DNA from: Gammaproteobacteria bacterium
GTDB lineage: Bacteria; Pseudomonadota; Gammaproteobacteria; JASBUN01
Reading direction: 5' to 3'
Assembly (NCBI GenBank): GCA_030147845.1
Contig: JASBUN010000036.1
Span: 1 to 64,000 of the forward strand
DNA: 64,000 nucleotides
In this document: positions 30,869 through 33,270 of the stretch, piece after piece
Numbering within the stretch: position 1 is the stretch's first letter
Layout of the letters: every line of letters starts with the position of its first letter
Notes under the pieces: model-generated
Database searches by the model: none
The model's input: only the letters and a program-made list of their open reading frames with translations
Told to the model about the DNA's origin: nothing
Program-made: the position numbers and the translations under genes

Positions 30869-32278
30869 ATGAAAAACAAGGCCACCAGCATCATGGTCGT
30901 GGATGGGTCGGAAGTATCCCGCACGATCATCTCTCGGATTCTCCACAGCGAAATGGAGAACACGCGTATCGCCACGTCCGGTCACGGGCACGAGGCGTTG
31001 GCGCACCTGAACGAAGGCCGCTTCGATCTCATCACCACGGCATTGATGCTGCCGGACATGGACGGCCTGGATTTAGCGCGCGCCATTCGCAAATCCGACA
31101 CGCATCACTACACCCCCATCATCGTCGTCTCCGGCGATGCCGACACGCGGCTATTGCGCGAAGGCTTTAACGCCGGTGTCACCGATTACTTTGACAAATC
31201 GCTCGGCTATCAAGCCTTCGTCGAGTTTATCAAGACCTTTACCCGTCGCAACTCCGGCTTGGTGGGCAAAATCCTGTACGTCGAGGATAGCCGTACCGCC
31301 GCCATGGTGGCCTGCCACATCATGGAAAAACATGGTCTCAAGGTCACGCATACGACTTCTGCCGAGCAGGCGCTGGAGCTGCTCGAACAGACCCGCTCCG
31401 GTAGCGCCAAGGAGGAAGACGGCTTCGATATCGTCATTACCGATTTTTTCCTCAAGGGCCGTCTAACGGGCGGCGACCTGCTGCACGCGGTGCGCACCCG
31501 CATGCACTACTCACAACAGGAAATGCCGGTGCTGGTGGTCACGGTAGCGGACAATGAGCAGAAACAGGCCGAAGTGTTCCATGCCGGCGCCAATGATTTT
31601 GTCACCAAGCCGATCGTCGAAGAGATACTCATTGCCCGCATCCGCTCGTTGCTGCTGATCAAGCAGCAGTTCAACGCCCTCAAGCGCCAAGCCGAGGAAA
31701 TGCGGCGCATCGCCGGCACCGACAGTCTTACCGGTGTGCGCAGCAAGCGCTATCTGCTCGACCATGGCGAAGCCTTTATGGCCGAGCCGGATAATCACCC
31801 GATCTGGGCGTTGCTCATGGATATTGACCACTTTAAGAATATCAACGATAAACTCGGACACATCACCGGCGATCACGTACTCGCGGCGCTGGGCGACCTG
31901 CTCAACCAGAGTTTTACCGATGACGCGATCGTAGTGCGCTTTGGCGGTGAGGAATTCGCCGTCATTTTGCCTCGCTGCGGCGCCCGCGAGGCCAACGCCA
32001 AGGCCGAGGTACTGCGCCGCAAAGTCGAAAAATTGCGCCCCGCCAACGTTCCTGTCACCATCAGCATCGGCATGGCGTCGTCAATTGAACACCCTGACAT
32101 CAACCTAAATCGGCTGCTATCGTTAGCCGACAAGGCGCTGTACGCGGCCAAGGCGCGCGGCCGCAATTGTATCTGTATCTACTCGCAGCATGGGGTCGAG
32201 TACAGCAGTCCGGCGCAACCACCGCATACCGGCCTCACCGATGCCGATCTGAGCGCCGTCGATTCCAGCGGCTCGTAA
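30869..32278 (+). CDS. Double-receiver diguanylate cyclase
   Basis: This 469-residue protein has REC1 (about 1-125), REC2 (about 130-265) and GGDEF (about 290-440) domains. REC1 is degenerate: the phospho-acceptor Asp is Ala58 in DLITTALMLPDMDG, and the acidic pair is D12-G13. REC2 keeps the aspartate (VITDFFL), an acidic pair (YVEDS) and the lysine (DFVTKP), so it should be the phosphorylated one. The cyclase motif is FGGEEF, which is active-type. The RxxD inhibitory site is absent before it (TDDA). A cognate kinase is not in the window. It lies between ftsX and rpoH, an inserted position relative to the common ftsEX-rpoH order. Confidence 0.93.
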   Translation: MKNKATSIMVVDGSEVSRTIISRILHSEMENTRIATSGHGHEALAHLNEGRFDLITTALMLPDMDGLDLARAIRKSDTHHYTPIIVVSGDADTRLLREGFNAGVTDYFDKSLGYQAFVEFIKTFTRRNSGLVGKILYVEDSRTAAMVACHIMEKHGLKVTHTTSAEQALELLEQTRSGSAKEEDGFDIVITDFFLKGRLTGGDLLHAVRTRMHYSQQEMPVLVVTVADNEQKQAEVFHAGANDFVTKPIVEEILIARIRSLLLIKQQFNALKRQAEEMRRIAGTDSLTGVRSKRYLLDHGEAFMAEPDNHPIWALLMDIDHFKNINDKLGHITGDHVLAALGDLLNQSFTDDAIVVRFGGEEFAVILPRCGAREANAKAEVLRRKVEKLRPANVPVTISIGMASSIEHPDINLNRLLSLADKALYAAKARGRNCICIYSQHGVEYSSPAQPPHTGLTDADLSAVDSSGS

Positions 32279-32323
32279 GTCGCCCCGGCGCCGGAACTTC
32301 CCGCAGTTTCTCTCCTCTAACAA

Positions 32324-32350
32324 TTAGCACTCTCTATTAACGAGTGCTAA
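32324..32350. promoter_or_regulatory. CIRCE operator (HrcA site) upstream of rpoH
   Basis: TTAGCACTC (32324-32332), a 9-base spacer and GAGTGCTAA (32342-32350) form a perfect CIRCE inverted repeat. The centre lies about 60 bases before the rpoH start. HrcA is the established binder of CIRCE. The match to the consensus is exact; binding here is inferred. Confidence 0.92.
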
Positions 32351-32397
32351 ACTAGCTAGTCATAACCTTGCGCAGTCTCCGATCAGGAGGTTAATTG

Positions 32398-33270
32398 ATG
32401 TCTAATTCGTTGATTTTAAAAGATATGAATCTAACGCTTCCGCAACCTGTAGGGAGCCTGGACAATTATATTCAGATCGCCAATCGGATCCCTGTATTAA
32501 CTGCGGAGGAAGAGCGCGAGTTGGCTCAGCGTCTGCAACAACATGGCGATTTGGAAGCCGCTCGACGCTTGGTGCTGTCGCACCTGCGCTTCGTGGTCCA
32601 TATTGCGCACGGTTATAAGGGTTATGGCCTGGCGCTGGCAGACCTGATCCAGGAAGGCAACATCGGCCTGATGAAGGCGGTAAAGCGTTTCGACCCGAAC
32701 GTCGGCGTGCGCTTGGTGTCGTTTGCCGTGCATTGGGTTCGCGCCGAAATGCATGAATTCATTTTGCGCAATTGGCGCATCGTCAAGGTCGCCACCACCA
32801 AGGCCCAGCGTAAACTGTTCTTTAACCTGCGTAGCTCGAAAAAGCGGCTCGGCTGGTTCAGTCACGAAGAGGTACGCAAGGTTGCCGCCGACCTCGGTGT
32901 GAGCCCTGAGAACGTCCTGGAGATGGAATCGCGTTTGAGTGGCCATGACGTCGGCTTCGACGGATACGCCGACGACGACGACGCTGGGAGCGTGTCGGTG
33001 GCGCCCTCGACCTATCTGCAGGCCGAGCAGCGTAGCGATCCAGCGGTCGAATTGGAACGCAGCGACTGGGATGAGCACAACACGCGCAAGCTTGAGCATG
33101 CCATGCAGGCGTTGGATGCCCGCAGTCGCGATATTCTCGTGCGCCGCTGGCTCAGCGAAGACAAGGCCACCTTGCAGGAACTCGCCGATCACTACAATAT
33201 TTCGGCCGAACGCGTGCGCCAGCTCGAGAGTAACGCCATGCAGAAAATCAAGGGCACGATGACGACCTGA
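32398..33270 (+). CDS. rpoH: RNA polymerase heat-shock sigma factor 32
   Basis: Sigma-32 directs transcription of heat-shock genes. The start is ATG 32398, preceded by AGGAGG at 32385-32390; the product has 290 residues. The RpoH box QRKLFFNLR (residues 137-145) is diagnostic. Region 2 contains [19 protein letters not shown], and region 4 ends in the helix-turn-helix [19 protein letters not shown]. The extra acidic insert ([14 protein letters not shown]) is unusual. A perfect CIRCE element precedes it, so HrcA may repress it. An intrinsic terminator follows the stop. Confidence 0.98.

Follow-up and report, generated by a model that had tools for sequence, protein, structure and literature searches.

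A CIRCE element merged with predicted sigma-70-type and sigma-E-type promoters upstream of rpoH in Gammaproteobacteria

In a gammaproteobacterial genome, rpoH, which encodes the heat-shock sigma factor sigma-32, is preceded by a perfect CIRCE element, the operator of the repressor HrcA. Judged by comparison with related genomes, this element probably works as an HrcA operator through which rpoH is repressed at two overlapping promoters, one sigma-70-type and one sigma-E-type. The rpoH CIRCE is not unique to the source genome, and its presence largely follows that of HrcA across the class.

A perfect CIRCE element upstream of rpoH

The window, i.e. the whole stretch of DNA analysed (64,000 nucleotides), carries the sequence TTAGCACTCTCTATTAACGAGTGCTAA at 32324-32350. 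This confirms the perfect CIRCE that had been claimed there by a sequence-only reading, as TTAGCACTC-N9-GAGTGCTAA is matched exactly, with 0 mismatches. The short gap to rpoH described in that reading also stands, although it measures 47 bases between the last CIRCE base and the ATG at 32398, not 48. Its account of the region was correct for CIRCE but overlooked the overlap with predicted sigma-E-type and sigma-70-type promoters, due to which the element may control more than a single input. The features of the region are as follows:

32293..32299, + strand: predicted sigma-E-type -35, GGAACTT, identical to the consensus
32316..32320, + strand: predicted sigma-E-type -10, TCTAA, 16 bases after the -35 and ending 3 bases before CIRCE
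32324..32350, + strand: CIRCE, predicted HrcA operator, TTAGCACTC-N9-GAGTGCTAA
32324..32329, + strand: possible weak -35, TTAGCA, 4/6 to TTGACA, inside the CIRCE left arm and 18 bases before the -10
32345..32353, + strand: predicted extended -10 of a sigma-70-type promoter, TGC-TAAACT, its first six bases within the CIRCE right arm
32385..32390, + strand: Shine-Dalgarno sequence, AGGAGG, from the sequence
32398..33270, + strand: rpoH (sigma-32), 290 aa, from the translation (TIGR02392 408.9 bits, above the curated cut-off of 323.1; NF005143 431.9 bits)

At up to three mismatches, CIRCE has a single match in the window, against 0.02 expected from dinucleotide shuffling. A chance palindrome, a vanishingly improbable reading, is ruled out by this expectation together with the conservation of the site in other genomes. 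The rpoH CIRCE is almost certainly real as a site, because the arrangement is widespread in related HrcA-bearing bacteria.

Between ftsX and rpoH, the window carries a gene for a 469-aa response regulator/diguanylate cyclase (PleD-like, GGDEF 127 bits; 30869-32278, + strand). In E. coli, ftsX adjoins rpoH.

HrcA, RpoE and other CIRCE sites of the genome

The source genome (3,664,633 bases in 68 contigs, 94% complete) has one copy of hrcA, at G000:C55:102923-103582 (220.6 bits), identified with PF01628 (E 3.6e-65) and TIGR00331 (335.8 bits). The further CIRCE copies that the sequence-only reading had proposed looking for are present: a scan of the whole genome at up to three mismatches found the element in three places, ahead of rpoH and, besides it, of groES and of hrcA, and every one is perfect. 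Downstream of the CIRCE-hrcA pair lie open reading frames that read as grpE, dnaK and dnaJ (named by eye). The source genome thus has both sites of the known HrcA/CIRCE system of groESL and hrcA-led dnaK operons, and its repressor and operator are like those of that system. An rpoE gene is found on contig G000:C16 (TIGR02939 325.8 bits, cut-off 236.15), with a plausible anti-sigma gene, judged from position and length only, directly 3' of it.

A weak scan for sigma-32-like sites found CTTGAAT-N13-CCCAAT, with 2 mismatches, ahead of dnaK, and none ahead of groES or rpoH of the source genome. As only dnaK of these three has such a site, the rpoH CIRCE would join an HrcA branch (groESL) with a sigma-32 branch (dnaK).

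The groES CIRCE of the source genome (L125, G000:C38:2856-2882) is part of a longer palindrome, also perfect, whose arms (CGCCGTTATTATTAGCACTC and its complement) are about 20 bases long. The CIRCE sites ahead of hrcA genes (L236-L261) often end in GAGTGCCAG or GAGTGCTAG, not GAGTGCTAA. Given these differing ends, the self-regulating CIRCE of hrcA appears, in its outer bases, to be a weaker site than the CIRCEs of rpoH and groES.

Distribution of CIRCE upstream of rpoH

Named genomes were scanned for a CIRCE core followed by a gap and an RpoH motif. At least 119 loci were found, mostly from beta- and gammaproteobacteria, along with one Geobacteraceae and one Zymogenaceae record; Nitrosomonas europaea, Dyella, Bordetella, Pseudoalteromonas and Thioalkalivibrio are among the names listed. 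Two of the loci, L021 and L118, are titled Verrucomicrobia and Rhodospirillales and have a gammaproteobacterial-looking RpoH with CIRCE; these contigs may have been mis-binned or mislabelled.

From the class, 185 genomes were drawn evenly; among them, HrcA was found in 130, the strict CIRCE-rpoH pattern in 73, and rpoH in 171 (E <=1e-60; 14 genomes without). The comparison is class- and phylum-wide, with the source genome as sole representative of its order. For CIRCE upstream of rpoH, 151 genomes were examined, 73 having the strict pattern and 78 through their rpoH upstream DNA (80 regions, with the best CIRCE in each scored); 20 other rpoH-bearing genomes of the draw, including G016 and G020, fall outside this set. 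CIRCE with up to three mismatches is found in 108/115 genomes with HrcA versus 10/36 without detectable HrcA (Fisher p 5e-15, a value that overstates the significance because the genomes tested are related). Among genomes that are at least 90% complete, the counts are 100/107 versus 4/29. In composition shuffles of the 80 regions (three per region), the best CIRCE never fell below 6 mismatches.

Thus, rpoH is not the unusual CIRCE target that it had been taken for: it is the rule among HrcA-bearing members of the class, and was predicted as a target in 2004 for Geobacter sulfurreducens. CIRCE on rpoH as an oddity of one lineage is ruled out by its recurrence across the named scan and the class sample. 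The earlier suggestion that HrcA controls rpoH is strongly supported by this comparison, in that hrcA is present and the site recurs with HrcA, which points to such control.

The seven HrcA-bearing genomes without an rpoH CIRCE are G026, G071, G112, G120, G147, G150 and G171, and G112 has an apparent 8-base CIRCE spacer. Six of the ten genomes with CIRCE and no detectable HrcA are less than 90% complete, so hrcA may merely be absent from the assembly; the other four (G074, G093, G127 and G134) are at least 97% complete. Two rpoH genes each are found in G032 and G176; of the two in G032, only one has the CIRCE pattern.

In a draw of 150 genomes from the phylum, the strict CIRCE-rpoH pattern was found in 10, with 6/37 in the same class and 4/113 outside it. 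The four outside matches (G221, G241, G268 and G311) all belong to one family, f178, and have CIRCE before a gene with an RpoH motif; their flanks are unlike the class pattern in three of the four.

A predicted sigma-70-type promoter merged with the operator

Promoters were scored in 117 of the 119 listed named loci, these having enough flank, and in a further class set of 45 rpoH sites that includes 4 HrcA-negative genomes. The control operators were 31 groES sites of the 42 places found (30 loci plus the source genome) and all 26/26 hrcA sites.

Conservation at rpoH continues past the right arm of CIRCE. In 118 aligned rpoH sites, among the matches listed, position +28 is A in 89% and +29 is T in 96%, and the right arm therefore reads GAGTGC-TAAwAT, a sequence that predicts a sigma-70-type promoter with TGC-TAAwAT as its extended -10. 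AT at +28/+29 is seen in 101/117 named rpoH sites (among the matches listed) and 34/45 further class sites, versus 1/31 at groES and 1/26 at hrcA. A hexamer with at most one mismatch to TAAAAT or TAATAT occupies this -10 position in 107/117 (among the matches listed) and 40/45 rpoH sites, and the same position of the control CIRCEs in 6/31 for groES and 6/26 for hrcA.

The sigma-70 score gives weight to a TG ahead of the -10; as all CIRCEs contain one, groES is the control. By this score, +24 is the start of the best -10 in 98/117 named rpoH sites (among the matches listed) and in 37/45 further class sites. For groES, the start is at -5, i.e. ahead of the operator, in 27/31 sites, while at the 26 hrcA sites no common register of the sigma-70 -10 was seen. 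One operator is therefore used in different registers, lying just downstream of the -10 at groES and containing most of the -10 at rpoH. In the window, the best sigma-70 score for rpoH is likewise at offset +24, with a spacer of 18 and a -10 (TAAACT) that has 2 mismatches.

A predicted sigma-E-type promoter at the left side

The sigma-E-type promoter consensus is GGAACTT for the -35 and TCnnA for the -10. When both strands were scanned for GGAACTT-N15-17-TCnnA, the window had one match, which is perfect, with a spacing of N16. Transcription from it is predicted to start about 6-7 bases past TCTAA, inside the left arm of CIRCE. The rpoH of E. coli K-12, the positive control of the scan, has a near-consensus TGAACTT-N16-TCTGA.

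Sigma-E-type promoters were found at 81/117 named rpoH sites (among the matches listed; shuffle mean 10.3, maximum 20) and at 38/45 further class sites (shuffle mean 3.7, maximum 9), and at only 1/31 groES and 1/26 hrcA control operators. The common arrangement is GGAA(C)TT near -16, then 16 bases, then TCnnA, and in this register TCnnA is built from the left arm of the operator plus the first bases of its spacer. An exact -16 register for the -35 is seen in 61/162 rpoH sites (the 117 named ones being among the matches listed), versus 1.8 by shuffle. Of the sites with this register, 55/61 have the A that completes the -10 within the operator spacer, versus 46/101 of the other sites.

These registers bear on a rival reading, which we regard as unlikely, in which HrcA represses the sigma-70-type promoter only, and the sigma-E-type promoter escapes, allowing envelope stress to bypass the chaperonin check. 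The promoter of the window is in a minor -31 register, 15 bases upstream of the common one, and its -10 (32316-32320) ends 3 bases ahead of the operator rather than within it, as such an escape would have it; among relatives, the sigma-E-type promoter also occurs in several registers. However, its -10 falls within the left arm of the operator in many relatives, the commonest register places it inside the operator with enrichment of the base needed there, and even in the window the expected sigma-E start would still be within the left arm.

The predicted starts also bear on a highly improbable reading in which the repeat is not a DNA operator but forms an RNA hairpin where the rpoH message begins, acting in stability or thermosensing. 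If the sigma-E start predicted in the window holds, the 5' end of the transcript would fall in or at the left arm, and a stem of as many as 9 bp could form in it. In the commonest arrangement, however, the predicted starts are within or past the right arm, and thus neither message would hold both arms; on these predicted starts, a hairpin as the general function was rejected. Furthermore, what is kept is the exact HrcA operator sequence, beyond what pairing would need, and its presence tracks HrcA. The arms of the rpoH sites are nearly fixed, with distinct spacers in 116/117 (among the matches listed).

Proposed regulation of rpoH

HrcA activity depends on GroEL in other bacteria, such as Bacillus. 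For HrcA at rpoH, we infer binding, repression, the start points and GroEL dependence from the comparisons above. With repression of both promoters by HrcA, the preferred reading, free GroEL would keep HrcA active, and HrcA would occupy the rpoH CIRCE so that neither holoenzyme starts rpoH. Misfolded protein would titrate GroEL, upon which HrcA would release rpoH, groESL and hrcA (followed by grpE-dnaK-dnaJ) together. Release would give more sigma-32, and still more once envelope stress frees sigma-E. The outcome would be a feedback from chaperonin to sigma-32 that is linked to envelope stress. If this is true, GroEL feedback and envelope stress meet at a single rpoH site of about 60 bp, and if it is true for most HrcA-bearing members of the class, sigma-32 is under transcriptional GroEL feedback in these bacteria.

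Relation to known systems

Textbook regulation of sigma-32 derives from E. coli, which is without HrcA; accordingly, a profile search for HrcA in the E. coli control gave no match. Unlike the rpoH of the window, that of E. coli has no CIRCE, its best match having 8 mismatches. Geobacter sulfurreducens belongs to a different phylum from the source genome. CIRCE upstream of rpoH may have been reported earlier for beta- and gammaproteobacteria, by Permina and Gelfand in 2003.

A perfect CIRCE was predicted at -51 from the rpoH start of G. sulfurreducens in 2004 (PMC545781, Table 8), and is like that of the source genome in both operator and target gene. Among the Geobacter entries of the accessible part of that table, the rpoH site is given for one species only, and how it lies with respect to sigma-70 or sigma-E promoters is not described in the accessible text (PMC545781). 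CIRCE before rpoH is not reported in the accessible portions of PMC3989490, PMC13171946 and PMC10696704. The rpoH genes of E. coli, Salmonella and Pseudomonas likewise have a sigma-E (AlgU) promoter, with sigma-E binding at rpoH in Salmonella and at least one AlgU-dependent rpoH promoter in Pseudomonas, according to the accessible sections of PMC4577112 and PMC4585239. The merged layout of sigma-70-type promoter, sigma-E-type promoter and CIRCE was not found in the open-licence literature. CIRCE before rpoH is thus already known, and the combined cassette may be undescribed.

Possible ancestry and loss of the operator

It is quite possible, although we put this forward tentatively, that the rpoH cassette, in which CIRCE is embedded in sigma-70-type and sigma-E-type promoters that are both gated by a chaperonin-sensing repressor, is ancestral in Gammaproteobacteria sensu lato (including the former Betaproteobacteria). 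The repressor-less design of E. coli would then consist of the promoters left after loss of hrcA and the operator.

At HrcA-negative loci that lack CIRCE, TGnTAnnnT is retained 50-130 bases ahead of the RpoH domain in 17/26, versus 3.2 in shuffles. This pattern is consistent with an operator that was lost from a promoter that stayed, but an extended -10 on its own could also have arisen anew. The same retention of the extended -10 is what would be expected were the repeat a relic, its right arm kept solely as a promoter -10 and HrcA now irrelevant. As a reading of the window this is very improbable: the left arm there is perfect too, hrcA is intact, and the operator has in most cases decayed or gone where HrcA is undetected. 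Some HrcA-negative loci, e.g. those of G076 and G055, resemble decayed operators.
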